A stretch of DNA of 64,000 nt from Halothermothrix sp. (GTDB lineage Bacteria; Bacillota; Halanaerobiia; DY22613): assembly GCA_016841825.1 (NCBI GenBank), contig JAENYK010000005.1, forward strand, positions 1-64,000, given 5' to 3'. Position numbers and translations under genes: made by a program. Every line of letters begins with the position of its first letter. Positions within the stretch are counted from its first letter, which is position 1. The notes below the pieces were generated by a model. The model did not search any database. It had not been told where the DNA came from and saw only the letters and a program-made list of their open reading frames with translations. Below, in pieces: positions 38,074 through 58,248 of the stretch.

Positions 38074-39747
38074 ATGAAAAGATTATTTTGGATTTTACTG
38101 GTGATTATGTCTATTTTCTGGGGTTCTTTAGCTTTTGCTGCCAACCCGGAACTTAGTACGATTCCTGTTGATACCACAGATACTTATCTGTTGGTGACCA
38201 ATAACTTCAATCATGGTTTGGTTTTGGTTGATCAACGGAATGGCAAGACAGTGACTATCACTGAAGGGAGAAATGCTGGTTATTATGCGACTATTTCAGC
38301 AGATCAGCGATATGTTTGTTATAAGTCGTTCTTACCAGAAAATGAGCGATATTTACAAAAGTCAATGCTTTATGATATTAAAACTGGTGAGAATATCGCT
38401 TTGACAGAGTGGAACACGTTGGTTGGTACTCCTACTGTGGCACAAAATGGGACCATAGCTTATACAGTGGGTAACGAATTGTTGATTCTGGATGCGAATT
38501 TTAATCAAAAAGATTCTTTGAATTTAGGCTATCATGTTAACTTACTTGACTTTTCGTCTGATGGTCAAAAGTTAACCTTTAATGATGCCAATGGACAAAT
38601 TGTTGTTTTAAATTTAGCTGATAAAGGGATGAAGATTGTTGATAGTAAAAACAGTTTCTGGGGACCTAAATTTTCACCAAATAGTGATAAGATTATGTCT
38701 CCAACTGTTGATGGCTATACAGCTTTAGTGGACGTTCAAAGTGGCGAGATTAAAGCACTGGATAAAGGTCAGGCTTTGGGCTGGATTGATAATGATACCA
38801 TAGCTTATTTGGATAAAAAGATAAATGAGAAAGACGCTAAAGTCGAAAAATCCGATCTGATTATGCTAAATACCGTTGATCTAAGTAAAAAAGTAGTTAC
38901 AGTTAATAATGGTGATGCTACAGTCGCCCTGAAAGCCGGAGATATTGCTTTATCCCGTCAAGGACAATTAGAAATGGGACAGGTTCGTGATCAGAAGTTA
39001 AATACCTGGTCTAACAAGATTAAAGTCCCTGTACCTGCACAAGATATTTTTGCCGATGTTGTGCAAAACGAAGCAGTGGAAGTTCAAAGCAGCGATTTTT
39101 CTATTCAGGCAATTTACGATGGTGTATATTCCAGATATTTAACTGGAATGCAGTATATACATCAAGTGTATGATACACCTAACAATTTCAATGGTCACTG
39201 GGCTTGTGGAGCCAGTTCTGCACTAATGGCGATCCAATATTATGGAGTACTGTCATCTCATCCAATTACCGTCAGTGTTCCTTACAGCCATACCAGTAAT
39301 TATGGTTGGTATGTCAGCAGTGTATATACTTATGGTCGGACTTTCAATATCTATGGTGCAGACCCTAATGGAACTTTATTTGCCGGTGGTTATGGATATA
39401 TCATTCAAAATGACTGGGCAGACACTAAAGGTCATATGGCTGAATATATTCAATATCATGGTCGTGGTTCTAGTGTCGACTGGAGTCCATACTGGAGTGA
39501 GTTCCAGACCGAGATAAACAATAACCATCCGTTTGTAGTGTTAACTTCACTTACCAGTTCGGGGCATTATATTACTGCCAGAGGTTACTATTGGGATCAA
39601 CATAGTGGGGTGTTTAATGATCCATATGGCAATAAGAATAGTGGATATATGAACTATTCTGGTACTTTGGTTGGTTATGATTGGCCAGGTTACAATAATG
39701 GGTATAGTAACCTGAATACCGTTCACTGCTTTATTTATTGTAGATAG
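38074..39747 (+). CDS. Secreted beta-propeller / C39-like cysteine peptidase (557 aa)
   Basis: Exported two-domain protein. Residues 1-22 form a Sec signal peptide ending in a SLAFA-A cleavage site. Residues about 30-330 are repeated beta strands in TolB/WD40-like blades (ISADQRYVCYKS, FSSDGQKLTFND, FSPNSDKIMSP). The C-terminal domain (about 350-557) is a papain-like/C39-type peptidase: HWACGASSALMAIQYYG gives the nucleophile Cys378, SGHYITARGYY gives His498, and FNDPYGN gives Asp516. The fold suits cleavage or transfer at a peptide bond outside the cell, with the propeller as a docking platform. It has its own promoter and terminator, so it is monocistronic. The target is unknown. Confidence 0.8.
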   Translation: MKRLFWILLVIMSIFWGSLAFAANPELSTIPVDTTDTYLLVTNNFNHGLVLVDQRNGKTVTITEGRNAGYYATISADQRYVCYKSFLPENERYLQKSMLYDIKTGENIALTEWNTLVGTPTVAQNGTIAYTVGNELLILDANFNQKDSLNLGYHVNLLDFSSDGQKLTFNDANGQIVVLNLADKGMKIVDSKNSFWGPKFSPNSDKIMSPTVDGYTALVDVQSGEIKALDKGQALGWIDNDTIAYLDKKINEKDAKVEKSDLIMLNTVDLSKKVVTVNNGDATVALKAGDIALSRQGQLEMGQVRDQKLNTWSNKIKVPVPAQDIFADVVQNEAVEVQSSDFSIQAIYDGVYSRYLTGMQYIHQVYDTPNNFNGHWACGASSALMAIQYYGVLSSHPITVSVPYSHTSNYGWYVSSVYTYGRTFNIYGADPNGTLFAGGYGYIIQNDWADTKGHMAEYIQYHGRGSSVDWSPYWSEFQTEINNNHPFVVLTSLTSSGHYITARGYYWDQHSGVFNDPYGNKNSGYMNYSGTLVGYDWPGYNNGYSNLNTVHCFIYCR

Positions 39748-40612: not shown

Positions 40613-42034
40613 ATGCAGCAGAGGTTTAAGGATTTTCAACAGAAACGGATGGAGATCTTTCGGGAACTAATTAAACGACAATGGGAAAAACCTTTAACAA
40701 ATGAAGATTTAGAGATAATAGCAGATGAGATAATTCGAAAATATGGTTATCAGGATGAAGATGCCGCTTTTGTCAAAGATCATATTCGGGTAGCAATGGG
40801 CCAGAACCCCAACCAACAACGATCTTTTACTGATGAAGCGGAAATTTTGCAGACAATTCCCCAGGTTACCAGACCAATTTTGACAAAGATTGAAGGAGCC
40901 TGTAAAGAATGTGGTGAAAATTATGAAGAGTGTGACTGTTATGATGTTTGTAAATACGAAGCCCAGATGTATAAAAGAAGTACTGGCCCGATGGTGATTG
41001 AAGATAAATGTCTGAGTTGTGGAAGGTGTACGATTACCTGTTCTTTTGGAGCACTGGCAGATAAGATCGAATTTCTTCCATTATTAAATCTATTGAATCA
41101 GGAAGGGGTGAAGGTATATGCCTCAGTTGCTCCTTCGATAGTTGGTCAATTTGGAGATAATATTTCCATGGGTCAGCTCAGAACAGCTTTTAAGCTGATG
41201 GGCTTTGAAGATATGGTGGAAACAGCCCTTTTTGCGGATATTCTGACTATTAAAGAGGCTTTTGAGTTCAACAAATTGGTTACTAATAAGGAAGATTTTT
41301 TTCTGACCAGTTGTTGTTGTCCAGTCTGGCTTAATCTAGTCTTTAAGAATTACCCCGATCTTACTAGTCATATGTCTCCATCTGTATCTCCAATGATAGC
41401 TTCAGGACGATTTTTGAAAAAGTTATACCCTGGAATCAAAGTGGTTTTTATCAGTCCATGCACTGCGAAAAAGGCTGAAGCTAAAGATCCTTTGTTAGAA
41501 GATGCCATAGATTTTGTCCTGACCTATAACGAATTAAAAGAGATTTTTACAGTTATTGGAGTTGATTTACAGGAACTGCCTGAAGATGATAAAGACCATG
41601 CTTCTTTTGCCGGAAGGGTGTATGCCAGAACAGGAGGTGTTAGTCTATCGGTTAAAACCGTTGTTAATCGGATTGCTCCCGACCGCTTGATTCATCTGCG
41701 AGCTAAGAAGGTACATGGAGTCAAACAGTGCAAAGCTATTCTGGATCAATTAAAACAAGGTGTACAGATTGGTTATAACTTTATTGAAGGTATGGGGTGT
41801 GAGGGAGGTTGTATTGGGGGTCCTAAGACTAATATTTCTGTAGATCAGGCTAGACAACTAGTTAATGCCTTTGGTGAAGATTCTTTAATCATGACTCCTA
41901 TGGATAATTTGAACATTTTAAAAATTATCTCAGAATTCGGCGTTAATCATTATAGGGAAATTGCCGACAACCGAGACATTACTTTACTTCTGGCTAGAGA
42001 TAGAAAACGGGCTGAGGAACTTCTGGAGAGATGA
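40613..42034 (+). CDS. [FeFe]-hydrogenase-like catalytic protein, group B-like (473 aa)
   Basis: Iron hydrogenase large-chain protein with an H-cluster domain. L1 is TSCCCPVW (Cys234-236), L2 is SPCTAKKAEA (Cys283), and L3 is EGMGCEGGCIGGPK (Cys396 and Cys400). Together these give the four Cys ligands of the [4Fe-4S] subcluster. Upstream lie a ferredoxin-type cluster motif CLSCGRCTITC and a Cys-rich stretch CKECGENYEECDCYDVC. The GMGC...GGP form of L3 and the triple Cys in L1 differ from standard group A enzymes and resemble group B proteins of Clostridia. Partner NuoE/F-like subunits and maturases (HydEFG) are absent from the window, so the electron partner is probably ferredoxin. The start is ATG 40613; an ATG at 40609 is out of frame. 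Confidence 0.85.
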   Translation: MQQRFKDFQQKRMEIFRELIKRQWEKPLTNEDLEIIADEIIRKYGYQDEDAAFVKDHIRVAMGQNPNQQRSFTDEAEILQTIPQVTRPILTKIEGACKECGENYEECDCYDVCKYEAQMYKRSTGPMVIEDKCLSCGRCTITCSFGALADKIEFLPLLNLLNQEGVKVYASVAPSIVGQFGDNISMGQLRTAFKLMGFEDMVETALFADILTIKEAFEFNKLVTNKEDFFLTSCCCPVWLNLVFKNYPDLTSHMSPSVSPMIASGRFLKKLYPGIKVVFISPCTAKKAEAKDPLLEDAIDFVLTYNELKEIFTVIGVDLQELPEDDKDHASFAGRVYARTGGVSLSVKTVVNRIAPDRLIHLRAKKVHGVKQCKAILDQLKQGVQIGYNFIEGMGCEGGCIGGPKTNISVDQARQLVNAFGEDSLIMTPMDNLNILKIISEFGVNHYREIADNRDITLLLARDRKRAEELLER

Positions 42035-44635: not shown

Positions 44636-47600
44636 GTGGAATCACTCAAGAAATTTATTTATGATCAATTAGCGGCAGATAACTTATCAATAGCAGAAGC
44701 ACGTAAATTGCTTAAAGAACTGCAGACTAAATCAACAGGACCTACAGATGGGAATAAAGATATCGCAGTAATCGGCATAGCAGGAAGATTTGGCACAGCG
44801 GAGGATGTTACATCATTCTGGCAAGATCTATTGGAAGGTCAGGATTTTGTTACCCATCTGCCGGAAGCTCGTCAAGAAAGTGTTGCTGAATTTCTGGAAT
44901 TTAAAAACTTAACACGGGAAGATGTAATCATCAGGGAAGGTGGTTATTTAAGAGAAGTTGCTGATTTTGATCCTGATGTATTTGGAATTTCTGCCAGAGA
45001 AGCCAGTCTGTTAGATCCCAATCAGCGGTTATTTCTGGAGATAGCCTGGAAAGCGATAGAAGATGCTGGTTATGGTGGGGGTGCTCTAGCTGGATCAAAT
45101 ACTGGAATCTTTATCGGATTTAGTCAGGATTTTGGTGACCGTTATAAGCAGCTGATTAAACAGTACTCTCCTGCAATGCTGCCCATGGCTACTCTGGGTA
45201 ATATTAATTCAGTAATTGCAAGTCGACTGTCCTATCTGCTGAATTTAAAAGGGCCAGCTATGTTGATAGACACTGCCTGTTCTTCTTCGTTAGTAGCTGT
45301 ACATATGGCATGTCAAAGTATTCGTAATGGGGATTCTGATTTAGCCATCGCTGGTGGTGTAAAGATTTGGAATCTACCAGTGGAAGAGAAATCTGCCGGA
45401 GAATTTGGAGGGAATACTGGGCCAGGAATTGGCATCGAATCCAGTGATGGGAGATGCCACACCTTTGATGATAGTGCCAGTGGTGCAGGGTTTGGTGAGG
45501 GAGTAGGAGCAATCCTGTTGAAACCTTTGAAGCAAGCTCTGGCTGATAGAGATCCGATTTATGCGGTGATTAAAGGATCAGCGGTGAATCAGGATGGTAA
45601 GTCTATTGGAATTGCTGCTCCTAATGTATTGGCCCAGGAAGCAGTTTTGCAGAAAGCCTGGAAGAATGCTGATATTCCACCTGAGACTCTCTCTTATATT
45701 GAAGCCCATGGAACTGGAACAAGAATGGGTGATCCTATTGAGATTTATGCTATCCAGAATTCGTTTGAAAAATATACCAATAAAAAACAATTTTGTGCAG
45801 TAGGTTCAGTAAAATCAAATATTGGACATTTGGATCATGCAGCGGGTATTGTTGGGATGATTAAAGTGATTCTGGCGTTAAAGAATAGAATTTTACCGCC
45901 GAGTATTAATTTTGATCGACCAAACAAAGAGATTGATTTTATTAATTCTCCAGTTTATGTTAATGATAAGCTCCGTACCTGGCTGACGGATTCAGATATT
46001 CGGCGTGCCGGTATAAGTGCTTTCGGCTTAAGTGGTACTAACTGTCATATCGTATTAGAAGAACCGCCTGTTATTGAGTATGAAGAAGATTATAATGCGG
46101 TTAATATTTTAACACTCTCTGCTAATTCTGAAAGGGCATTAGAGAGGTTGGTCAATAAATTCGTATCATTTCTCAACCAGAAAGACTGCCCTAATCTGGC
46201 GAACCTTTGTTTTACAGTTAATACCGGAAGGGGAGATTATAAATATCGTCTGGCGATGATTGTTCAGGATACAACTGATTTATGGAACAAGTTGCAGTTG
46301 ATTGATGTCTCTAATCTAAAAACGATTGAAGATAAACGAATCTTTTGTGGTATTCTGGATCGGTCTCAATCTCAGCAGGGTATCTACACAGGAGATTATA
46401 CTAATTTGATAGAGGTGGCCCGAAGATATGTTCAGGGAGATTACCTTGACTGGAATCAAATGTACGGAGACAAAAGACTGCAGAGAATCAATCTGCCGAC
46501 GTATCAGTTTGATAATCAGAAATATTGGATAAAACCTGACAAATCGTCATTGAAGATTAATCAGTCATCATCTAATGATGAATTTTATCATCAAACCCGT
46601 TGGATTCCGCTGGATTTGAAAACCGAACAGAAGGTAGATTTGACCGGTACAGTAGTTATCCTGACAAATAATCAGGAAAACGAAGAACGGCTTTTTAAAC
46701 ATTTGCAGGATGAAAAAATACAGATTATCCGGGTACAACAAGGTCAATGTTATCAAAAGATCAATGAAAATCATTATATAATATCCGATTCACGCGGTGA
46801 ATATAGTACTTTATTTTCAGAATTAGCAGAACGAAATATCTCGGCAATTCTTCATCTGTTAACCTTTGATAATCAAGAAATTGACAGTGTTGGCGATTTA
46901 GAGACAGCTCAAAGTAGGGGATTTTATAGTTTGTTTTATATCATTAAAGCTCTGGAGCAGATTAATCTGAAAAATCAGATCCAATTATTGATAATCTCCG
47001 ATTATGCCCGTGCAGTTACTGGTTCTGAAGAAACAATAAAACCAGAAAATATTTGTGCATTGGGATTAGGCAAAGTGATCAATCAGGAGTCTTTTCAGAT
47101 CACCTGTAAATCTATTGATCTGGACAAACATACAGACCTTCAGGTGATAGTAAGTGAGATGATTACTATTACTAAGGATACTCAGATCGCGTATCGGAAT
47201 GGTCAAAGATTTGTTGAAGAGTTAAAATCTATCTCTGGCAAACTGGAACACAGAAATAAGCTGGTTCTAAAAGAAACAGGAGTCTATGTGATCACTGGCG
47301 GATTGGGAGGCATCGGTCTGGAGATAGGTAAATTGTTAGTTAGTCTGGGATCTAAGCAGGGTAAAAAGGTAAATTTGGCTCTGATTAGTCGCAGACCGTT
47401 ACCTCCCAGAGAAGTCTGGGATCAGATTTCGGATACTGATCCATTGTATGACAAACTCACAACCATTCTGCAGATGGAGGGTATGGGAGCAAATGTGGTC
47501 TATTATAGTGGGGACGTGGCAAATTATTCCCGGATGGAATTAATCATGCTTCAACTACGAAAACAGTTCACTAAGATCAATGGATTACTGCATACTGCTG

Positions 47601-48478
47601 GTGCTGCTGGAGATAAGCTTATGGTTAACAAAAGTTTTCAACAGATAAGAGAGGTTTTAACACCCAAGATAGCGGGAACCTGGATCTTAGATAAATTGAC
47701 CAGAGATGACACATTAGACTTTTTTGTATTATTCTCATCTATTAGTGCGGCTTTTGGAGGGCCTGGTCAGGGTGATTATGCAGCTGCTAATCTTTATCAG
47801 AATTCGTTTGCTGATTATCGTAACAGATTGGGTTTGTCTACTGTGGTGATCAATTGGACAGCCTGGAAAGAGGTCGGAATGGCCAGGAACTATCAGGTTA
47901 ATTGGGATGACCTGTTGTTAAAACCGTTATCAACGGCTCAGGGATTGGACTTATTTATTGAGATATTAGAACAGAATATTCAACATGTTATGGTCGGTCA
48001 GCTTAATTTATCAAATATCAGTAATCTGGCTGATAGATTACCCATACGTTTATCTTCTGAAATTAAGAGTGATGTAGTATATGGGCTGAATCAGACCAAA
48101 TTAGAAGAAGTGAAAGTTAAAGAGAAAACCGGAGCAATTGAAAGACAAATAGCAAAAATTTGGGGTAATGTCCTGGGTCTAAATGAACTGAGTGTTGATG
48201 ATAATTTTTATGATCTTGGAGGAGATTCGATTATTGCTTTGACTTTACTAAATGAGATTGATAAAGAATTTCCGGGGATTATGGATGTGACAGATCTCTT
48301 TTCTCAACCTACAGTTCGAAGTATAGCCAAACTAATTGCGATTAAAACCCGGGAACCCGTAAATTATGATCAAAATACCGATGAAAAACTACTAAACATA
48401 TTAGACCAATTGGAAAAAGGTGAGCTGTCTTCAGAAAAAGGTCTGGGATTATTACTGGATTTGGAGGAAAAGAGATAA
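44636..48478 (+). CDS. AT-less polyketide synthase, KS-KR-ACP (1280 aa)
   Basis: Monomodular type I PKS. Residues 1-30 are a helical docking-like start. KS (about 41-475) has DTACSSSL (Cys215), EAHGTGT (His358) and NIGHLDHAAG (His398). Residues 475-640 are a post-KS linker ending LPTYQFDNQKYW, with no acyltransferase domain. The KR (about 655-1130) has GGLGGIG near 888, Ser1035 in FSSIS and Tyr1048 in GDYAAANL; the Asp in HTAGAAGDKL hints at a B-type alcohol, weakly. ACP (about 1165-1240) has LGGDS with Ser1198. The C-terminal tail LLNILDQLEKGELSSEKGLGLLLDLEEK resembles a docking segment. The product would be one two-carbon extension reduced to a beta-hydroxyacyl-ACP, malonyl loading being in trans. 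GTG start after AAGGAGGG. Confidence 0.9.
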   Translation: MESLKKFIYDQLAADNLSIAEARKLLKELQTKSTGPTDGNKDIAVIGIAGRFGTAEDVTSFWQDLLEGQDFVTHLPEARQESVAEFLEFKNLTREDVIIREGGYLREVADFDPDVFGISAREASLLDPNQRLFLEIAWKAIEDAGYGGGALAGSNTGIFIGFSQDFGDRYKQLIKQYSPAMLPMATLGNINSVIASRLSYLLNLKGPAMLIDTACSSSLVAVHMACQSIRNGDSDLAIAGGVKIWNLPVEEKSAGEFGGNTGPGIGIESSDGRCHTFDDSASGAGFGEGVGAILLKPLKQALADRDPIYAVIKGSAVNQDGKSIGIAAPNVLAQEAVLQKAWKNADIPPETLSYIEAHGTGTRMGDPIEIYAIQNSFEKYTNKKQFCAVGSVKSNIGHLDHAAGIVGMIKVILALKNRILPPSINFDRPNKEIDFINSPVYVNDKLRTWLTDSDIRRAGISAFGLSGTNCHIVLEEPPVIEYEEDYNAVNILTLSANSERALERLVNKFVSFLNQKDCPNLANLCFTVNTGRGDYKYRLAMIVQDTTDLWNKLQLIDVSNLKTIEDKRIFCGILDRSQSQQGIYTGDYTNLIEVARRYVQGDYLDWNQMYGDKRLQRINLPTYQFDNQKYWIKPDKSSLKINQSSSNDEFYHQTRWIPLDLKTEQKVDLTGTVVILTNNQENEERLFKHLQDEKIQIIRVQQGQCYQKINENHYIISDSRGEYSTLFSELAERNISAILHLLTFDNQEIDSVGDLETAQSRGFYSLFYIIKALEQINLKNQIQLLIISDYARAVTGSEETIKPENICALGLGKVINQESFQITCKSIDLDKHTDLQVIVSEMITITKDTQIAYRNGQRFVEELKSISGKLEHRNKLVLKETGVYVITGGLGGIGLEIGKLLVSLGSKQGKKVNLALISRRPLPPREVWDQISDTDPLYDKLTTILQMEGMGANVVYYSGDVANYSRMELIMLQLRKQFTKINGLLHTAGAAGDKLMVNKSFQQIREVLTPKIAGTWILDKLTRDDTLDFFVLFSSISAAFGGPGQGDYAAANLYQNSFADYRNRLGLSTVVINWTAWKEVGMARNYQVNWDDLLLKPLSTAQGLDLFIEILEQNIQHVMVGQLNLSNISNLADRLPIRLSSEIKSDVVYGLNQTKLEEVKVKEKTGAIERQIAKIWGNVLGLNELSVDDNFYDLGGDSIIALTLLNEIDKEFPGIMDVTDLFSQPTVRSIAKLIAIKTREPVNYDQNTDEKLLNILDQLEKGELSSEKGLGLLLDLEEKR

Positions 48479-48626: not shown

Positions 48627-48635
48627 CATAAGTTA
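48627..48635 (+). promoter_or_regulatory. Weak sigma-K-like -10 motif before the DUF6385 gene
   Basis: CATAAGTTA fits the sporulation sigma-K -10 consensus CATAnnnTA, about 68 bp before the GTG start. No good -35 (AC) at the right distance was seen, and a vegetative-like TATAAT at 48661-48666 competes. It is recorded because the downstream locus contains a spore-coat-like domain. Confidence 0.25.
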
Positions 48636-48702
48636 AAATCACTATTTTAAAAAATTCGTATATAATATATTGAATCACAAAATTGAAGGGAGTGGGGATA
48701 TA

Positions 48703-49296
48703 GTGCCCAACTATAATGTTCGGAATTTAGATGTAAACCAATTAAAAAGTCAAATATATGGTACTTCAACTACAAATCCGGTGGCTACCGATGATGATGG
48801 ATTACTAGTTATCAGAAGCATTTCCGATTCGATTACAGTAAGTGTTACTGGAGATATTACAATTCGGGATCTGACAGCAGATAGCGACAGTATTTTGATA
48901 TATGGTTATGATGGTACAAATATTCAAGCGATTAGTACAGACACAGATGGTAATGTCAGAACTCATCTTACTGCAAGGGATTTTACAGAATTAAGTGACT
49001 TAGATTTGACCTCAGATGATACTTTTACAAATAGTACTTCCCGAAATACTTCTGAGTATTCGGTATATTCTTTTGCTATATATAATACTGGTAATACCAA
49101 TAGTATTGATGCTCAGTTAGAAGTTAGTCCTGATGATTCTATGTGGTCAGTGGATACTGGTCCAGTAACTATCAATGCCGGTAGTATGGATGTGTTCTTC
49201 CCGGCTAGTTTCTTAAAATATACCCGGATAGCCTATCAATCTACCAGTACCGGAAACGCATCTTCTCTTGATGTTTATTTCCAGGCTCAAGTATAA
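48703..49296 (+). CDS. DUF6385-type Ser/Thr-rich surface-like protein (197 aa)
   Basis: Acidic, Ser/Thr/Asn-rich, Lys-poor, beta-strand-type protein without a signal peptide or membrane segment, recognised from memory as DUF6385. The N-terminal part has short repeats of form DSI-V-G-I (SDSITVSVTGDITIRDL, SDSILIYGYDGTNI). The C-terminal part, YSFAIYNTGNTNSIDAQLEV, SPDDSMW and FLKYTRIAY, is clearly homologous to the C-terminal half of the protein at 57505-58248. I start at the GTG at 48703 behind GAAGGGAGTGGGG; the frame is open to a TTG at 48670. It heads a block of four glycosyltransferase genes, so it is the most likely glycan acceptor (inference). Confidence 0.75.
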   Translation: MPNYNVRNLDVNQLKSQIYGTSTTNPVATDDDGLLVIRSISDSITVSVTGDITIRDLTADSDSILIYGYDGTNIQAISTDTDGNVRTHLTARDFTELSDLDLTSDDTFTNSTSRNTSEYSVYSFAIYNTGNTNSIDAQLEVSPDDSMWSVDTGPVTINAGSMDVFFPASFLKYTRIAYQSTSTGNASSLDVYFQAQV

Positions 49297-49302
49297 ATTA
49301 AA

Positions 49303-49321
49303 GGGCCCCTTTCTGGGGCCT
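49303..49321 (+). other. GC-only hairpin between DUF6385 and the first glycosyltransferase gene
   Basis: GGCCCC-TTTCT-GGGGCC (49304-49320) is a 6-bp all-GC stem in AT-rich DNA, followed by TGAAAAA rather than a U-run. It could stabilise the DUF6385 mRNA 3' end or attenuate transcription into the glycosyltransferase genes, giving more acceptor than enzyme. Confidence 0.5.
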
Positions 49322-49343
49322 GAAAAATGTGAGGTGCAAAAGA

Positions 49344-51425
49344 GTGGAACAACCTAAGATTAGTCTTTGCATGATAGTAAAAAATGAAGAGAAGAATCTT
49401 CCCAGGTGTTTAAAAAGTGTTCAGAATATAGTTGATGAAATAATAATCGTTGATACAGGTTCGACAGATAGTACATTACAAATTGCTGATGAATATGGTG
49501 CACAGGTTACAGTCTATCCCTGGAAAAATAATTTTAGTCAGGCACGCAACATTGGTTTAGGTTTAGCCCGGGGTGAATGGATATTATATCTGGATGCAGA
49601 TGAAGAATTATCTCTACAAGCTCAAAAGGCGATCGGGAAACTGCTTAATTCACCGGAGATAGAAGGATACATAGTAGAGGTCGTTAATTATACGGGAAAA
49701 AGTGTGGATAGTTCGCGTCTTGTCCATCAAAATTGCCGACTTTTTCGTAATCGAAAAGAGTATCGTTTTATAGGTAAAATTCATGAACAAATTCTTCCAG
49801 CGATTTTAAAAAATCATTCAAATGCACAAATTTTAAAAACGGATCTCCAAATATATCATTATGGTTATATGGAAGGAGATGATAATCGGATTAGTAAAGT
49901 CCAGAGAAACATTAACATCTTAAAAAATGAATTAAGTGTTTTGAAAGAGAATTCGTTTCTGGAATATCATTTGGGCATTGCTTATTATGAATTAGGGGAG
50001 ACCAGGTTAGCACTGGAATGGTTGAAAAAGAGTTTTCAACATTTAAATCAAGGTTATGCTTTTGGTCCAACATTGGTTCGTAATATTGCATTATGTCTTT
50101 ACGATTTAGCGGAATATCGGGAAACCATAAGTTTTATTGAAAGGGAGATAAAAAATCATCCAGATTATACTGACCTTCATTATTTATCTGGATTGTGTTT
50201 TATAAAATTAAAAAATTATTCACGAGCGATCAAAGATTTTCAAAAATGTTTGCTGCTCGGTGAGGTATCGAGTAAATATACGACTACTTTTGGTACCGGG
50301 ACTTATCTCGCTTACTATAGTCTGGGTAGAGCCTATCATGGTTTATGTGATACTGAAAAAGCTATAAAAAATTATGTTGAAGCAATACATATTGAACCAT
50401 CTTTTACCGAGCCCTTATATCCATTGGTAAAATTGTTAAAGAAAAAATATCAGAATATTAATCTGGTGTTAAGTCATATTGAGACAGAATTTGACTTCGC
50501 AACAGATTATGGATTAGGGTTAATGGCTGACCTTTGCGGTATTCTTAGGGAAGACCAGCTTGCATTGAGTTATCTTGATAGAATTAAGGCCTCCGGAGAA
50601 CTCTCCAGAGATTTAAAAATATTATATGCCAAATCATTGTTGGGGTCCGGACGGTATAATGCGGCATATGACTATTTTAATAATTTTACTGTTCAAACTG
50701 AGCAGATGCAGGGATTAATTCTGGAATTATGTCTGGCTACCTGGTTGAAAAACCCCAGGGAGAGCATCCAGAAAATTAATGTCAATTTGTTAGAACTTTT
50801 GGATGTAAATGTTAAAAATGTTCTGTATAGTATTGATCAGCTATGGGCTTTAGATAAAGAACAGAGTGGAATTAAGAAATTCTTAAAAGATAAAGCTCAA
50901 CAGTTGGGATTTGGAGGAAAAGAAAATATATATATTCAATTAACAAAGCAAATTTCGACGAACCAGGAAGAATATGCAGATACTGTATTATATGTACTGG
51001 AAAAATGTCTACGCTATCGGGGAATTGAGTTATTTAAAAAATCTTCCAGATTGTTTTTGGAATTGAATATTGACCAATGGAAATTACATTTTTTTCTTGG
51101 CGAATTATATTATAAATATGAATACTATAATGAAGCATCAGATGAGTTTCTAAAAAGTCTCGAGTTCGGAGTACATAATGAACGCGTATATCACTACCTG
51201 GGAGAGATCTGCGAGCAGCGGGGATTGTTATCTGAAGCGGAAAATTTATATTGTCATGCATTGAATATGAATGATCATGTCCTGGAATATCATCTATCTG
51301 CTATTCGGGTGGCATTGAAAAGAACCCGCAGGGTTATTAAGCAAATAATCAAAATTATGCCCAGATCTAAAGATATTAATAATGAATTAAAAGTAATTGA
51401 CTATTGTTTACAAAAATTAGGGTAA
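49344..51425 (+). CDS. GT2 glycosyltransferase with TPR repeats, paralogue 1 (693 aa)
   Basis: SunS-like architecture. An N-terminal family-2 glycosyltransferase (about 5-230) has ISLCMIVKNEEKNLPRCLKS, IIIVDTGSTDST (nucleotide-binding), and LYLDADEE (D-x-D metal site), followed by GKIHEQILP. Residues about 240-690 are helical TPR-like repeats (YELGETRLALEWLKKSF, YSLGRAYHGLCDTEKAIKNYVEAI, KYEYYNEASDEFLKSL). Soluble enzyme; such proteins glycosylate proteins or peptides, the TPR part holding the acceptor. I start at the GTG at 49344 after GAGGTG; an upstream GTG at 49329 overlaps that element. It is the first of three paralogues in a row, sharing an operon with the acceptor candidate. Confidence 0.85.
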   Translation: MEQPKISLCMIVKNEEKNLPRCLKSVQNIVDEIIIVDTGSTDSTLQIADEYGAQVTVYPWKNNFSQARNIGLGLARGEWILYLDADEELSLQAQKAIGKLLNSPEIEGYIVEVVNYTGKSVDSSRLVHQNCRLFRNRKEYRFIGKIHEQILPAILKNHSNAQILKTDLQIYHYGYMEGDDNRISKVQRNINILKNELSVLKENSFLEYHLGIAYYELGETRLALEWLKKSFQHLNQGYAFGPTLVRNIALCLYDLAEYRETISFIEREIKNHPDYTDLHYLSGLCFIKLKNYSRAIKDFQKCLLLGEVSSKYTTTFGTGTYLAYYSLGRAYHGLCDTEKAIKNYVEAIHIEPSFTEPLYPLVKLLKKKYQNINLVLSHIETEFDFATDYGLGLMADLCGILREDQLALSYLDRIKASGELSRDLKILYAKSLLGSGRYNAAYDYFNNFTVQTEQMQGLILELCLATWLKNPRESIQKINVNLLELLDVNVKNVLYSIDQLWALDKEQSGIKKFLKDKAQQLGFGGKENIYIQLTKQISTNQEEYADTVLYVLEKCLRYRGIELFKKSSRLFLELNIDQWKLHFFLGELYYKYEYYNEASDEFLKSLEFGVHNERVYHYLGEICEQRGLLSEAENLYCHALNMNDHVLEYHLSAIRVALKRTRRVIKQIIKIMPRSKDINNELKVIDYCLQKLG

Positions 51426-51444
51426 ACAAATGGGGAGGGGAACA

Positions 51445-53445
51445 ATGTCTAAACTGGATTTAAGTGTCTGCCTGATCGTTAAAAATGAAGAGAAGAATTT
51501 GCGAAAATGTCTTGAAAGTGTCCTGAATTTAGCGGATGAGATTATAGTTGTTGATACAGGTTCTACTGATAACACTATTCAGATTGCTAAAGAATATACT
51601 GCGAAGATATTTTTTTTCTCCTGGATAGATAATTTTTCTGCTGCACGAAATTTTGCAATCGAACAGGCGCAAAAAAATTGGATCCTGATGATAGATGGGG
51701 ATGAAGAGATAAATACAGCTGATCGGTTTTATTGGGAAAGATTATTGACTGACCCCAAAAAAGAAGGTTATTTTGTTCAAATCCAAAATCATGGAGATAT
51801 AACAAACAATAGTATTCGCAATCCATCCTTTCGTCTCTTTCGAAGAAAAGCAGAGTATCGGTATTATGGTAGAATCCATGAGCAGATACTACCTCAAATC
51901 TGTAAGACTCATGATTTATCTTGCATTGGAATTACTGAATTGGTTTTGTTACACTATGGTTACTCACCAGAGCTTGTTCTTCAAAAATCAAAGATTGAAC
52001 GAAATATAAAGTTACTTCAGTTGGAGTTAAAAAATAGTCCACAGGATTCTTTTATGCGTTTCAATTTAGGAGTAGAATATTTTCGCATGTCTGAATATCA
52101 ACTGGCTGCCTGGAATTTTAGAGCAGCGATGAACTTATCTGACCTCAAAATTAGTTATTACCCTTTACTTATCTTGAGATTGGGAATGAGTTTGTTTGGA
52201 GCTGGAGATTTTTATGGCAGCGTAAAAGTTCTTAAAGATGGGTGTGAGTTGTTCCCGGATTATCCAGATTTATATTTTTTGTTGGGTGAGATTCATTGCG
52301 GTACAGGTCGTTATGTTGAGGGGATCGAGTATTTTAAAAAATGCCTGGAGATTGGGGAAGCGCCTATTCAATATGTGACAGCTATGGGGGTTGGGAGTTA
52401 TCAGGCAGCATATCTGTTGGGAGAGTGCTATCTTGATTTCGGAGATCTGGATAGGGCAGTCGAGTACTATTATCAGAGTTTAAAGATGAATTATTATCAA
52501 CCTGCTTTATTAGAAAAAATAGTAACAATTTATAGCCAACACTATTCTGAGGAAGAATTTAAAAATTTCTTTGAGAAGAAATTAGACTTTCTGGAGGATA
52601 ATCAGTTAGAAAATGTCTTATTTCAGATAATTGATAGTTATCCTAATTTTATTTTAGAACTTATTCAGAATGAAGAGTTTGATCTGAAATTAGAGAATAA
52701 AGACTATTTAATTGGTAAGGCCTATTGGAATAAACGGGAGTTTACGAAATGCGAACAGTGGATAAAACAGGTTGAGGAGACTGAAAATCTGATACTATTA
52801 AAGTTTCAGTTATATTGGTATATCGGAGACTGGGAGCAAATGGAAACAATATTAAATAATTTACCTGCAAATTTTTCCTATCCAGTGAAGGATGTTTTTT
52901 CATTATTAAAAGGTCTGGAGAGACAAGGAGATGAACAATCAGGCGAGGGGAGTTCTAATACTCTATCTGACCTTTTATATATTATGATCAAAGATTGGAT
53001 TACCATAGATTATAAAGTTGGCATAGAAGCACTTTTAAAAATTTTCAGGAAAATTGCTGCAGATGAAGCTAAATTAAAATTAGGAAAGCTGTTTTTTCGC
53101 GCAAAATACTATCAAGAGTCGATAGATCAATTTTTACAAGTTTCTGAGGATAAATTAGATGCCTGTAGTTTTGAATGTCTAGCTGTAATGTCATCTATGG
53201 GTAATAATAATCTGACAGCATTTCAGTTTATAAATCAAGCCTTTAATCAACCAGATCATTCTTTAGGTACCTGGTTGACCTATTTGAAAATTAATTTGCG
53301 TAATGTAACTGATTATGTTGAAAAGGCTTTGACCTATTACTCTGACCATTCTAACATTGAGCAACTGTTTACTATAATTAACAGGGAGGTGGATAAATTT
53401 GACAGATCATCCACTGTTGTCGGTTTGTATGATTGTAAAAGATGA
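51445..53445 (+). CDS. GT2 glycosyltransferase with TPR repeats, paralogue 2 (666 aa)
   Basis: Same layout as its upstream neighbour. The GT2 domain has LSVCLIVKNEEKNLRKCLES, IIVVDTGSTDNT and LMIDGDEE (D-x-D), then RIHEQILPQI; TPR-like repeats follow (AYLLGECYLDFGDLDRAVEYYYQSL, YFRMSEYQLAAWNFRAAM). The start is the ATG at 51445 after GGGGAGGGG; the ATG at 51430 overlaps that element and is less likely. It lies 19 bp after the previous stop and overlaps the next gene by 47 nt, so all are one operon. The central TPR region diverges from paralogue 1, suggesting a different acceptor position or step. Donor sugar unknown. Confidence 0.85.
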   Translation: MSKLDLSVCLIVKNEEKNLRKCLESVLNLADEIIVVDTGSTDNTIQIAKEYTAKIFFFSWIDNFSAARNFAIEQAQKNWILMIDGDEEINTADRFYWERLLTDPKKEGYFVQIQNHGDITNNSIRNPSFRLFRRKAEYRYYGRIHEQILPQICKTHDLSCIGITELVLLHYGYSPELVLQKSKIERNIKLLQLELKNSPQDSFMRFNLGVEYFRMSEYQLAAWNFRAAMNLSDLKISYYPLLILRLGMSLFGAGDFYGSVKVLKDGCELFPDYPDLYFLLGEIHCGTGRYVEGIEYFKKCLEIGEAPIQYVTAMGVGSYQAAYLLGECYLDFGDLDRAVEYYYQSLKMNYYQPALLEKIVTIYSQHYSEEEFKNFFEKKLDFLEDNQLENVLFQIIDSYPNFILELIQNEEFDLKLENKDYLIGKAYWNKREFTKCEQWIKQVEETENLILLKFQLYWYIGDWEQMETILNNLPANFSYPVKDVFSLLKGLERQGDEQSGEGSSNTLSDLLYIMIKDWITIDYKVGIEALLKIFRKIAADEAKLKLGKLFFRAKYYQESIDQFLQVSEDKLDACSFECLAVMSSMGNNNLTAFQFINQAFNQPDHSLGTWLTYLKINLRNVTDYVEKALTYYSDHSNIEQLFTIINREVDKFDRSSTVVGLYDCKR

Positions 53446-54628
53446 GGAAGATCTTTTGGCAAAATCCCTGGAGAGTGTCTCTGACTTAGCAGATGAAATA
53501 ATTGTTGTTGATACAGGGTCTACAGATAATACTGTGCAGATTGCCTTACAATATGGAGCCAAAGTCTATCATCATAGTTGGCAGGGACATTTTGGTAAAG
53601 CAAGAAATCATGCTTTCACTAAGGCTACAGGTGAATGGATAATGATCCTGGATGCTGATGAATTTATTCCAATAGAATTTAAAGATAGATTGAAATCGCT
53701 ATTAATTAGAGGTTTGGTAGAAAATATTGAAGGAATTATTATTCAGATTAAAAATTACTATGGAAATTCTGTGAATTATAATTATATCTTTGATTCTGCC
53801 TGTAGGATTTTTCGCAATCGTCCTACATATTTGTTTACTTCTCCCATTCATGAGGAGATGTCTCAGGTTATCCTCCAGAAGAAACCCGGAGCCAAAATTA
53901 TAACTACGGATTTACATATTGAACATCTGGGTTATCTGAACAATATTATTCAGAAAAAAGAAAAAAATGAGCGAAATTTAACAATTATTCTGGATGAACT
54001 CAAGCAAAGACCTGAAGATCCCTTTTTGAACTATGCCTGTGGAACTGAATATTTTCAGCGAGAAAAGTTCCAGCTAGCGTTGGAATATTACCTACAAATT
54101 CCTGTCAGCGAATATGCCCATCTATCCTTTGGGGCAGATCTGATATATAAAATTTCTGTATCATATCTTTTGTTAGCAGAATATCAATCTGGTCATGAAT
54201 ATGTCATTAAAGGTTTGGAGATATTTCCCGATTTTCAAGCTTTATGGTTTATCAAAGGAGAATTAGATTATATGCAAGATCAATTACAGTCAGCAAAAAG
54301 TGCTTATCAAAAATGTCTTCAGCTAAAAAATAATTCTGTCAAATATTTGCAGATTAATGGTCTGAGTTCATTTCGCTCTCTCTGGGCACTGGGAAGGGTG
54401 TGTGAAAAAGAGGGTAATGTAGAGGAAGCAGCAGTTCAATACTGTCTGGCGTATAACAGTAACCCCCAGTATAAACGATCTATTAGGAGTCTATTGCGAC
54501 TAATAAGAATTCAGAAAAAAACAATTATTGATTATCTGGATTTTGGTTCGGTCATGGACAGCTATGATCCAATCTATGATTTGTTTAAGGAATGGCTTTT
54601 AAGGAGTGGAAGCTATGAAAAAAATTGA
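53399..54628 (+). CDS. GT2 glycosyltransferase with TPR repeats, paralogue 3 (409 aa)
   Basis: Shorter version of the previous two. GT2 domain (LSVCMIVKDEEDLLAKSLES, IIVVDTGSTDNT, MILDADEF as D-x-D, SPIHEEMSQV) followed by only a few TPR-like repeats (LNYACGTEYFQREKFQLALEYY, LWALGRVCEKEGNVEEAAVQYCLAY). Translation starts at a TTG (53399) behind AGGGAGGTGG and lies inside the 3' end of the preceding gene (47-nt overlap). The following gene overlaps it by 14 nt. This tight coupling suggests fixed stoichiometry among the glycosyltransferases. The shorter TPR region may make it the elongating rather than the protein-recognising enzyme, which is a guess. Confidence 0.85.
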   Translation: MTDHPLLSVCMIVKDEEDLLAKSLESVSDLADEIIVVDTGSTDNTVQIALQYGAKVYHHSWQGHFGKARNHAFTKATGEWIMILDADEFIPIEFKDRLKSLLIRGLVENIEGIIIQIKNYYGNSVNYNYIFDSACRIFRNRPTYLFTSPIHEEMSQVILQKKPGAKIITTDLHIEHLGYLNNIIQKKEKNERNLTIILDELKQRPEDPFLNYACGTEYFQREKFQLALEYYLQIPVSEYAHLSFGADLIYKISVSYLLLAEYQSGHEYVIKGLEIFPDFQALWFIKGELDYMQDQLQSAKSAYQKCLQLKNNSVKYLQINGLSSFRSLWALGRVCEKEGNVEEAAVQYCLAYNSNPQYKRSIRSLLRLIRIQKKTIIDYLDFGSVMDSYDPIYDLFKEWLLRSGSYEKN

Positions 54629-57488
54629 AAAAGATTTCAAACTAATAGCAATGATGCGGGTTAAAAATGAAGAGGAATGGTTAAAAAAATCTATCTTAAG
54701 TATGTTACCTATCACTGACAAAATTGTTATTCTGGATGATGGTTCGATCGATGGAACTCCGGAAATATGTGCTGCATTTCCAGAATTAGTGGAATATCAT
54801 CGACAAGATGAAAAGTTCATTGATGAAGCCAGAGACAAAAATCATTTGTTAAAATGGGCATTAGATCATAATCCTGATTGGATTCTGGCCATGGATGGGG
54901 ATGAAGTTCTGGAGGAATTGGCTCCACAAACGATAGTCAATGAGATTCAACTTTTGGATCCTAAAAATCCTCAATACACTGTCTTTTATTTGCATTTTTT
55001 ATATTTTTGGAATAGTCCAGATACGTATCGGGTTGAGCCGGGTATCTATAGTAATTTCTGGCAAGCACGCCTATTTTCATTAAAAAATCAAAATAGACAT
55101 CTGGCCTTCTTACCAACACAACATGGGTCTAACTTTCACTGTGGGAGTATCCCGGGTAATTTGCGCAACCTACCGCGAAAATTAGATGTTAAAGTTAAAC
55201 ATTACGGTTATTTGGATTCTGAACAGAGGGAAAGAAAATATCGCTGGTACTGCAATAATGACCCTGAGCAGGCCAGTCAAGGCTATTATGAACATTTAAC
55301 ATCTGAAGAAGGTATGATTCTGGCTAATTGGAAAGAGCGTACAGAAGCTAGTTCAGCCAGTTTTGTCAAAGACACTATGTACTATCAATTTAGTAGGCCA
55401 GAAATTCTAGAATTAGTTCCTGAAGACGTTAGTTATGTTCTTGATATAGGTTGTGGTTTTGGACATTTGGGAAAAGCGATAAAAAATAAAATTTCAACTG
55501 CCAAAGTTTTCGGAATTGAAGTGGACTTTATGGCAGGTCAGGCAGCCAGTAAATTGTTGGATGATGTTCTGGTGGGTAATATTGAGAGTTTACATTTGCC
55601 CTATTCTTATGAAAGATTTGATTGTATAATATTGGCTGATGTATTAGAGCATTTACAGGATCCCTGGAAGGTTTTATTAAAGCTCCATAGATATTTAGCC
55701 AGAGATGGAGTAATGTTGATTAGTGTGCCTAACATCAGAAATCTGGGGATTATTGATCAACTTCTGTGTGGCAACTGGCGGTATCAACAGGCTGGAATCC
55801 TGGATTCAACCCATTTACGCTTTTTTACCGCGAGAGAATTTAGGAGGCTTTTGAAAAAATCGGGATACAAAATTTTGCATGTTCATGGAATAGAAGATTT
55901 GTCGTTAGAACCTCTGACTCTGGCCAGTTCATCATATTTTACAGAAATCGGGAATCATTTTGAATGGGGCAGTCTGGACCAGAGAACAGTTAATGAATTA
56001 CACACTATTCAATTATTGTTTCAGGTTCAAAAAGCACAACCGGGTGAAGCGGCAAAAGAACGGAAACTGACTTCAATCATTATCCCGGTATGTAATAATC
56101 TTGAGTTGACTAGAGCCTGTATTCAAAGTATTTTTGCGCATACTCTGGAACCTTTTGAATTGATTATCGTCGATAATGGTTCAACTGATGGGACAGTAGA
56201 ATATCTTAAAGGAATAACAGATGTTCAACTAATTCAAAATCAAGAAAATGAAGGATTTCCACGAGCCTGTAATCAAGGGATTCTCCACGCCCGGGGAGAG
56301 TATCTGGTGATCATTAATAATGATGTAATAGTACCTGATGGATGGTTGGGGAACTTAATTGACCATCTAGACGATGAAGAGCGGGTTGGAATTGTTGGTG
56401 TCTGTTCAAATTATGTTGGTGGCTCTCAAAAAACGAAAGGTTATTATAAGAGTTTAGCAGATTATTATGAGTTTGCAAGAGAATTTTATTGGGAAAATGA
56501 AGGGGAATATCTATTGACCTATCGTCTGGCTGGTCTATGTATGTTGATTAGCAAAGATGTTATCCAACAAATTGGAGGATTTGATGAAAGGTTTACTCCC
56601 GGCAATTTTGAAGATGACGATTTTTGTTTAAGAGCAGCGATTGCCAATTATAAGATGGTGATTGCAAAAGATGTGTTTGTTCATCATTTTGGTAGTATGA
56701 CTTTTAAAAAAGATCAGGAAGAGTATAGAAAGCTGCTGGCGATTAATTGGGGCAAATTTAAACTAAAATGGGGTATTGATTTTGCAATAGATCACCCAAA
56801 TAACATTTGTTTAGCAGATATTGTCTCCCAGTATAAATATGTCACTAATCCATCCCGCAATTATTACACTCCGGTAGATCAGGGTGAAGAGAGGGAAAAA
56901 ATAACTGCTTTCGATCAAATGTTTTTTGAGAGACAGATAATGAATAAAGATGCCTGTGATCTTGGCTATTGGCAGGAACATTTTTGTACTAAACTGGCCC
57001 GAAAAGAAGCGGTTCAGGGACAGATTCTGGATGCCGGTTGTGGTACAGGTGAGATTGATATCTGGCTGGCCCGGGAGGGATATGACATTACTGGAGTAGA
57101 CATTAGTCCGGTTGCTATCCAGAGAGCAGTAAATCATCTGCTGGCGGAATCAAAGGAAATCCAGGCCAGAATCAAGTTTTGTCAGTTTCCACTAGAGCGG
57201 TTACCTTTTTCCGATGATTCTTTTGATATATGTTTTATGTTTGAAGTGTTGGAACATATTTATGACCCTGAACCAGTCTTCAAAGAACTCGGAAGAGTGC
57301 TTAATTCAGCAGGATTAATTGTTTTGACTGTACCTCTGGAGGATTACTATCATGATTCAACTCATGTTCATTCTTTTACACCAGATTCACTTAAAGAGAT
57401 GTTAAACAAATTTGCCAAAGACATACAGGTAGAATCATTTCCGATAGAACACCAGATTGTTGCTCGTGTTCGAAAAATAAGTTATTAA
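54615..57488 (+). CDS. Four-domain glycosyltransferase/methyltransferase, GT-MT-GT-MT (957 aa)
   Basis: Domain order: GT2 (about 8-210; MMRVKNEEEWLKKSI, VILDDGSIDGT, LAMDGDEV); class I SAM methyltransferase (about 270-430; YVLDIGCGFGHLG, ILADVLEHLQDPW, VPNIRNLG); second GT2 of the rhamnosyltransferase-like type (about 485-745; SIIIPVCNNLELTRACI, IVDNGSTDGT, INNDVIVPDGW, GGFDERFTPGNFEDDDF); second methyltransferase (about 795-930; ILDAGCGTGEIDIWLA, FMFEVLEHIYDPEPVF, LTVPLEDYYHD). It would add two sugars and methylate twice, probably making an O-methylated glycan cap. The ATG at 54615 is preceded by AAGGAG; a GTG at 54606 overlaps it. It ends the operon before the SPOCS-DUF6385 gene. Confidence 0.85.
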   Translation: MKKIEKDFKLIAMMRVKNEEEWLKKSILSMLPITDKIVILDDGSIDGTPEICAAFPELVEYHRQDEKFIDEARDKNHLLKWALDHNPDWILAMDGDEVLEELAPQTIVNEIQLLDPKNPQYTVFYLHFLYFWNSPDTYRVEPGIYSNFWQARLFSLKNQNRHLAFLPTQHGSNFHCGSIPGNLRNLPRKLDVKVKHYGYLDSEQRERKYRWYCNNDPEQASQGYYEHLTSEEGMILANWKERTEASSASFVKDTMYYQFSRPEILELVPEDVSYVLDIGCGFGHLGKAIKNKISTAKVFGIEVDFMAGQAASKLLDDVLVGNIESLHLPYSYERFDCIILADVLEHLQDPWKVLLKLHRYLARDGVMLISVPNIRNLGIIDQLLCGNWRYQQAGILDSTHLRFFTAREFRRLLKKSGYKILHVHGIEDLSLEPLTLASSSYFTEIGNHFEWGSLDQRTVNELHTIQLLFQVQKAQPGEAAKERKLTSIIIPVCNNLELTRACIQSIFAHTLEPFELIIVDNGSTDGTVEYLKGITDVQLIQNQENEGFPRACNQGILHARGEYLVIINNDVIVPDGWLGNLIDHLDDEERVGIVGVCSNYVGGSQKTKGYYKSLADYYEFAREFYWENEGEYLLTYRLAGLCMLISKDVIQQIGGFDERFTPGNFEDDDFCLRAAIANYKMVIAKDVFVHHFGSMTFKKDQEEYRKLLAINWGKFKLKWGIDFAIDHPNNICLADIVSQYKYVTNPSRNYYTPVDQGEEREKITAFDQMFFERQIMNKDACDLGYWQEHFCTKLARKEAVQGQILDAGCGTGEIDIWLAREGYDITGVDISPVAIQRAVNHLLAESKEIQARIKFCQFPLERLPFSDDSFDICFMFEVLEHIYDPEPVFKELGRVLNSAGLIVLTVPLEDYYHDSTHVHSFTPDSLKEMLNKFAKDIQVESFPIEHQIVARVRKISY

Positions 57489-57504
57489 TGGTGGGGGAAA
57501 GCCG

Positions 57505-58248
57505 ATGGATTCTAATTTGTTTGTAAAAACATATTCTAAGATAGTGCCTTACGAATATTTGTTTATCTCAGTAATTAATTTGCCAGAGTCAGTATCACTT
57601 ATCAGAGAGATTGAGGCAAATGTTATTCTGCTTGACCAGGAAGTAGGAGATGGTTTTATTATTACTTCTGGTCTAGTTGATGTATACATTTATTACAAAG
57701 CCCATGATATAATAAAGGTCTGTCAAGAAAAATTAGATTTTTTATATTTATTAAAAGATGATTCAGTAAATAGTGATCAACAGATTAAGCTAAGTGGAAT
57801 TGCTAATATTGCAGAGTGTGTATTGATTAATCCATGTGAATTAGAGTTAAAGATATGTGTGAACTTTGAGGGATGGGCATCAAAATTAGTAAATTGTACA
57901 GAGTTAGAGGAATGTTATAGTAAACTCATCTGTGGTAAAAAATTTGCTTCATTTTCAGAAAAAGACATTTTAGTAGGAACAAATCCGGGATACTCTAAGA
58001 GTTATGATATATCAGAATATGATAATATAACTTTTTTTATCAATAATAAAGGGAACATTAATCAGGTTTTTTGTCACATTGAGATGAGCCCTAATAATCA
58101 AATTTGGATCGTAGACAGTAACATCCGAAATGCCACTCCAAATGGATCAACAACGTTAGTTGTCAGTACATTTTTGCAGTATGCGCGGATAAAATTCTGG
58201 GCAGAGTCTCCCACAATTATTGATCTCTGGTTACAAGTTCAAAGTTAA
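57505..58248 (+). CDS. SPOCS (DUF3794)-like / DUF6385 fusion protein (247 aa)
   Basis: Two-part protein. Residues about 25-125 look like the SPOCS/DUF3794 domain of clostridial spore-coat and exosporium proteins: EIEANVILLDQEVGDGFIITSGLVDVYIYYKA, then an aromatic-rich strand and IKLSGIANIAECVLI. Residues about 160-247 are the C-terminal DUF6385 unit: YDISEYDNITFFINNKGNIN, IEMSPNNQIWIVDS, TFLQYARIKFWAES, ending LWLQVQS, matching the protein at 48703. No signal peptide. Start ATG after GTGGGGGAA, 16 bp behind the glycosyltransferase gene. The fusion suggests that the DUF6385 module is tethered to a spore-coat-like layer; this is inference. Confidence 0.65.
   Translation: MDSNLFVKTYSKIVPYEYLFISVINLPESVSLIREIEANVILLDQEVGDGFIITSGLVDVYIYYKAHDIIKVCQEKLDFLYLLKDDSVNSDQQIKLSGIANIAECVLINPCELELKICVNFEGWASKLVNCTELEECYSKLICGKKFASFSEKDILVGTNPGYSKSYDISEYDNITFFINNKGNINQVFCHIEMSPNNQIWIVDSNIRNATPNGSTTLVVSTFLQYARIKFWAESPTIIDLWLQVQS

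Follow-up and report, generated by a model that had tools for sequence, protein, structure and literature searches.

We examined a 64,000-nucleotide stretch of a Halothermothrix sp. genome (positions 1 to 64,000 of contig JAENYK010000005.1, assembly GCA_016841825.1), hereafter the window. Between 48.7 and 58.2 kb lie six genes, all on the + strand, in the order DUF6385, three GT2-TPR glycosyltransferases, a GT-MT-GT-MT protein, and DUF6385; this gene content and order, proposed in an initial annotation made from the sequence, was confirmed for every gene. The features of the cassette are as follows.

48641..48667, +: sigma-K-like promoter of the operon, AC-N16-TATATAATA, with one mismatch to the consensus (direct reading)
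48703..49296, +: class A DUF6385 protein, 197 aa (PF19912, E 4.8e-30)
49303..49321, +: G/C-rich hairpin directly 3' of the class A gene (dG -16.9 kcal/mol, z -2.3)
49329..51425, +: GT2-TPR glycosyltransferase of slot 1, 698 aa (Glycos_transf_2, E 8.5e-25, plus TPR)
51430..53445, +: GT2-TPR glycosyltransferase of slot 2, 671 aa
53399..54628, +: GT2-TPR glycosyltransferase of slot 3, 409 aa, overlapping slot 2
54606..57488, +: GT-MT-GT-MT fusion, 960 aa, likely for glycan extension and methylation
57505..58248, +: class B DUF6385 protein, 247 aa, with a SPOCS-like N-terminus and a C-terminal DUF6385 (PF19912, E 4e-19)

For the first DUF6385 protein, the start codon is almost certainly the GTG at 48703 (197 aa) rather than the TTG at 48670, because its orthologues in two other genera are also 197 aa long and begin with MPNY or MPNF, and because a Shine-Dalgarno-like GAAGGGAG precedes this codon. 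The 19-bp spacing reported earlier applies to the gap between the first and second glycosyltransferase genes if the latter starts at its second Met; the gap between the DUF6385 gene and the first glycosyltransferase gene is 32 bp and holds the strong hairpin. Hairpins are found at the equivalent place 3' of the class A gene in two relatives (locus L086 of genome G001 and locus L087 of genome G026), with a T-run in the latter. The element is possibly a partial terminator or a stabiliser of the mRNA 3' end, and it would fit an output of class A protein exceeding that of the enzymes.

Directly upstream of the cassette, positions 44636-48478 encode a KS-KR-ACP polyketide synthase protein in which no AT domain was detected. 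We take the operon to be separate from this gene, since a hairpin is visible by eye in the intergenic sequence that follows it and since it does not adjoin the cassette in L086 or L087. Elsewhere in the window are a 6281-aa NRPS containing six stretches each of the condensation and AMP-binding types (12129-30974) and a 557-aa ORF (38074-39747) with no Pfam match at 1e-20, which adjoins an iron-only hydrogenase-type gene (40613-42034).

A search of the 5.08-Mb genome found only two DUF6385 genes, both within these 9.6 kb, and its three clear GT2-TPR genes are all in the cassette as well; the best GT2-TPR match elsewhere spans only 93 residues of the glycosyltransferase domain. Given this co-location, and an order of six genes that is kept in G001 and G026 (same class, two other genera), the cassette represents more than chance. 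Amino acid identities to the G001 and G026 orthologues are, respectively, 68 and 66% for class A (of equal length, 197 aa), 70 and 51%, 55 and 41%, and 61 and 50% for the glycosyltransferases of slots 1 to 3, 69 and 57% for the GT-MT-GT part of the fusion, and 50 and 25% for class B.

Both DUF6385 proteins of the window exceed the curated cut-off of PF19912 (26.8 bits), with scores of 103.7 and 68.9 bits. We sorted members of the family approximately, by sequence motif, into two classes. Class A proteins have a conserved N-terminus, MPN(F/Y/N)xxFxxxPxxLRxxIxG (in the window VPNYNVRNLDVNQLKSQIYG, with the GTG start), then a stalk rich in Ser and Thr, which differs greatly in length, and a C-terminal DUF6385 beta-sandwich head. 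The repeat units of the stalk, of ~13-50 residues, vary widely in sequence and number, and whole proteins range from 159 to 1172 aa; the window's stalk is short with weak repeats, whereas those of relatives are long. At the long end is a 1172-aa class A protein with ~22 near-identical 48-residue repeats (L144, 8371-11889). Ser and Thr together make up 27% of the residues before the DUF6385 domain in class A versus 12% in class B. Pfam gave no collagen match in class A; its matches between individual class A stalks and fibre repeats of phages or viruses may be low-complexity artefacts and were set aside as evidence.

Class B proteins carry other N-terminal modules before the same head: CBM96 in 13 of 42, a SPOCS-like domain in three, and collagen in 1 of 42. 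The collagen case (L153, 13761-15128) has a collagen-like GPP repeat directly before DUF6385, and its long upstream part may reflect a mis-set start; in Paenibacillus, the class B N-terminus is by eye rich in Lys and Arg. The SPOCS-like domain that had been proposed for the last protein of the cassette falls below the cut-off of the SPOCS/SipL family (PF12673, 23.6 bits), scoring 14.4 bits (E 0.046) in the window, 21.4 in L086, and 20.2 in L087. Profile-profile comparison nevertheless supports the resemblance: a profile of the three class B orthologues matches SPOCS domains encoded in those genomes (hhalign 94%; the E value of 8.5e-8 refers to one comparison). The window's own genome also holds a cluster of several multi-SPOCS proteins (G000, C38:348607-356886), and in another genome (G143) a SPOCS gene lies within ~4-8 kb of a DUF6385 pair. 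The initial annotation regarded both DUF6385 proteins as glycan acceptors. Class A is the likely acceptor; as a variable stalk rich in Ser and Thr is found in this class alone, class B is better read as an anchor or partner.

AlphaFold2 models the DUF6385 head as a confident beta-sandwich (pLDDT ~97), with low confidence for the N-terminal half of class A and for the SPOCS part of class B. A fold search with the head matched XepA, PirA, GOLD, CBM32, and Ena2A at Z 7-9.6; the match to Ena2A (Z 7.8, rmsd 2.9 over 86 residues) is tied with those to unrelated beta-sandwiches. As modeled, the head is a common beta-sandwich and uninformative on function. Sequence searches of class A and class B against solved structures returned no significant match.

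The three GT2 proteins share one layout: a single GT2 domain, whose DxD is intact (at residue 89 in slot 1), and C-terminal TPRs. GT2-TPR enzymes are also known to modify flagellins (GmaR) and bacteriocins (SunS), and the best PDB matches of the slot 1 protein are GmaR (6.7e-38) and SunS (~1e-28). Among NCBIfam models, SunS (TIGR04195) is the top family, but the scores of the three proteins (109.3, 80.8, and 79.7 bits) lie under its cut-off of 350, and membership was rejected. The presence of three such enzymes together with a GT(-MT)-GT(-MT) protein suggests an oligosaccharide. The second MT of the 960-aa protein (~residues 780-960) is missing in both orthologues and was seen in the window only among the compared genomes. 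The methylation envisaged earlier is not general: most relatives' cassettes are without an MT, and methylation appears restricted to a few lineages. In G026, a protein starting MKARKIIFIIGSGRTGTNWLANIL follows the class B gene (L087, 16172-16909) and looks by eye like a sulfotransferase, so the glycan there may be sulfated.

DUF6385 exceeds the family cut-off in 54 of 398 genomes of an even sample of the phylum, about one in seven, often as two close copies. It is patchy within the window's own class, where it occurs in only 3 of 59 genomes. To examine gene neighborhoods, we collected stretches of up to 20 kb around DUF6385 in 42 genomes, G001 and G026 included, 41 of which were usable. At 32 of the 41 loci, distributed across the Bacillota, at least one GT2-TPR gene lies within 5 kb of DUF6385, often as three in a row with a two-domain glycosyltransferase, and GT2-TPR genes make up a declining share of ORFs with distance (25%, 13%, 5%, and 0%). 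A conserved neighborhood, on which the initial annotation had made its proposal depend, was therefore found, and the linkage argues for a cassette dedicated to protein glycosylation, the likely acceptor being a DUF6385 protein. Glycosylation by a linked enzyme would not be universal, as no GT2-TPR gene lies nearby in the other 9 of 41 loci.

In the reciprocal direction, 79 loci were selected by glycosyltransferase similarity alone. DUF6385 was present in 14 of these, and collagen-like proteins or their N-terminal domain in 14 others; no locus among the 79 held both DUF6385 and collagen-like proteins. In a maximum likelihood tree of 77 glycosyltransferase domains, each window enzyme groups with strong support with the gene of the same slot in G001 and G026, and the slots are orthologous across families. 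The type of acceptor follows the tree, with 2 changes versus 15.6 in shuffles; this describes clustering and not a rate, because the rows were picked from loci with a known partner.

The promoters bear on when these genes may be expressed. Within 150 bases upstream, we searched for the sigma-K consensus AC-N16/17-CATA-N3-TA, as used for the appendage genes of Clostridium taeniosporum (PMC5749712). The motif precedes 15 of the 61 DUF6385 genes whose upstream region is free, where dinucleotide shuffles give ~0.5, and 17 of 305 other genes of the same loci (Fisher 2.5e-5, indicative because the genomes are not independent). The -10 part alone precedes 28 of the 61, against ~5.5 expected. Permuted control motifs were near expectation, apart from a mild excess of two of them for class B (equalled in 4/300 and 9/300 shuffles). 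Five promoter patterns had been examined at first, including sigma-E and sigma-A, and only the sigma-K forms stood out: sigma-E motifs were not enriched upstream of DUF6385 genes, and sigma-70 promoter-like sites in the region were not clearly above shuffles. Taken by itself, the window's own site, with its one mismatch, is weak evidence.

DUF6385 also tracks with the sporulation gene spoIVA. Of 56 genomes with DUF6385, 54 carry this marker, and the two without it are 75-80% complete. When only genomes of at least 90% completeness are counted, it occurs in 47 of 47 with DUF6385 versus 260 of 309 others (p 0.001, again indicative given the non-independence of genomes), and none of those that lack spoIVA has DUF6385. 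The association is modest, since most sampled genomes carry spoIVA. Furthermore, the window proteins are by hydropathy free of signal peptides and membrane segments, which fits synthesis in the cytoplasm of the mother cell; an N-terminal signal peptide or transmembrane segment is missing in nearly all relatives too. Where the initial annotation had left the outer layer of cell or spore as alternatives, the sigma-K enrichment, the near-restriction to spoIVA genomes, and the missing signal peptides favor the spore over the cell surface.

That annotation also stated that no described system of this composition was known to it. There is, however, a close functional parallel in SgtA/BclA3 of Clostridioides difficile, in which SgtA, a GT2-TPR enzyme encoded immediately upstream of bclA3, adds beta-O-GlcNAc to threonines of BclA3 peptides (PMC7157674). 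In both systems, a GT2 domain is followed by TPRs (in three genes in the window) and the glycosyltransferase gene adjoins that of a repeat-stalk protein, here placed by our reasoning at the spore surface; the acceptor residues lie in the stalk, being Thr by demonstration in C. difficile and Ser/Thr by prediction here. The systems differ in that the collagen Gly-X-Y stalk is replaced by non-collagen repeats and a DUF6385 head, a single glycosyltransferase by three GT2-TPR enzymes and a GT(-MT)-GT(-MT) protein, and in that a second head-bearing protein with a SPOCS-like module is found only here. The ribbon appendages of C. taeniosporum (P29a/P29b/GP85) offer a further parallel in repeat-bearing spore-appendage proteins, a glycoprotein tail, and sigma-K consensus promoters; there, the proteins are of DUF11 and collagen types, and DUF6385 is unmentioned (PMC5749712).

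We infer glycosylation, sporulation expression, and spore location for the DUF6385 system, and assign a probability of roughly 0.72 to the reading that the cassette is a mother-cell sporulation operon for a glycosylated spore-surface fibre, similar to SgtA/BclA with a DUF6385 fibre in place of collagen. The mother cell would make class A, with its N-terminal motif, repeat stalk, and beta-sandwich head, late in sporulation. By the precedent of SgtA and BclA3, the stalk of class A should be glycosylated by cytosolic GT2-TPR enzymes, which would add a first sugar to its Ser/Thr residues, and the GT-(MT)-GT(-MT) enzyme would extend the glycan and, in this lineage, methylate it. Class A would then be deposited on the outer layer of the spore, and class B, through the shared head and a SPOCS-like coat-type, CBM96, or collagen module, may anchor or cap it there.

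A more specific arrangement, which we consider possible and hold only tentatively, is that DUF6385 forms a further endospore appendage in which class A trimers or polymers build a filament O-glycosylated by its own GT2-TPR cassette. The MPN(F/Y)xVFQxxPxxLRxxIxG N-terminus would dock onto a DUF6385 head, belonging either to the next subunit or to a class B anchor. In the F-ENA endospore appendages (DUF4183), subunits have an N-terminal hook, a variable neck, and a head that the anchor shares, and putative O-glycans of a clostridial F-ENA lie on five Ser and three Thr (PMC11952670, preprint). Both kinds of protein begin with a short motif starting with MP, continue through a neck of variable length to a C-terminal beta-sandwich head, and are accompanied by separate anchor-type proteins that join the same head to a different N-terminal module. 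The hook motif differs from that of class A, however. Homology of DUF6385 to DUF4183 was tried by profile comparison and rejected (hhalign 0.4%), DUF4183 (PF13799) has no Pfam match in either window DUF6385 protein, and it was not found in 43 DUF6385 genomes; the likeness is therefore one of design, and the two would be unrelated in sequence.

Other uses of such enzymes have to be weighed against a glycosylated spore fibre. It is unlikely that this is a polysaccharide locus, with a structural or lectin-like DUF6385 and glycosyltransferases that build a free glycan: although the GT-MT-GT-MT protein resembles oligosaccharide-assembly enzymes, and sugar binding could be indicated by the CBM96 modules of class B (13 of 42 proteins) and by a head fold like that of CBM32, the six genes include no polymerase, flippase, transporter, or lipid-carrier enzyme. 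Furthermore, GT2-TPR relatives of known activity (SgtA, SunS, and GmaR) act on peptides or proteins, and the same family pairs with collagen-like stalk proteins in other genomes.

A glycosylated protein system of the vegetative cell surface or S layer is, in our view, quite improbable, given the sigma-K motifs, the lack of signal peptides and transmembrane segments in the window and nearly all relatives, and the confinement of DUF6385 to spoIVA-bearing genomes among those at least 90% complete; in its favor are that glycosyltransferase operons often serve the cell surface and that the heads look like carbohydrate-binding beta-sandwiches. Very improbable is bacteriocin or flagellin glycosylation of the SunS or GmaR kind, which the PDB matches and top NCBIfam family of the first enzyme would recommend and with which the cassette shares its GT2 catalytic domain family. 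The best SunS score (109 bits) is below the equivalog cut-off of 350, no bacteriocin precursor (such as a sublancin-like peptide), exporter, or flagellin gene was recognised among neighboring ORFs, and the partner genes differ, being DUF6385 or collagen-like proteins in relatives.

Overall, the cassette is conserved and most likely specifies a spore-surface glycoprotein in the manner of SgtA/BclA, with acceptors of a new class; it would belong to a widespread, undescribed kind with relatives in many spore-forming Bacillota. We found no mention of DUF6385 in the literature searched; the family now gains a likely place (the spore surface), a partner (GT2-TPR), and an architecture (stalk and head, with an anchor-like protein bearing the same head). 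The results suggest that non-collagen glycoprotein fibres cover the spores of many spore-forming bacteria, and that the cassette is modular, one glycosyltransferase family serving either collagen-like or DUF6385 stalks. For recombinant work, the cassette opens a way to O-glycosylate proteins and supplies a candidate acceptor.

Collagen-like proteins are encoded at GT2-TPR loci that include L019, L023, L036, L041, and L042, among others. Pfam names only the collagen part of these proteins, which share an N-terminal domain, SQANIPNITPxIxxTRDDAINLLLxSIAxEELGLSHI, that also occurs as stand-alone ORFs of ~100-140 aa.
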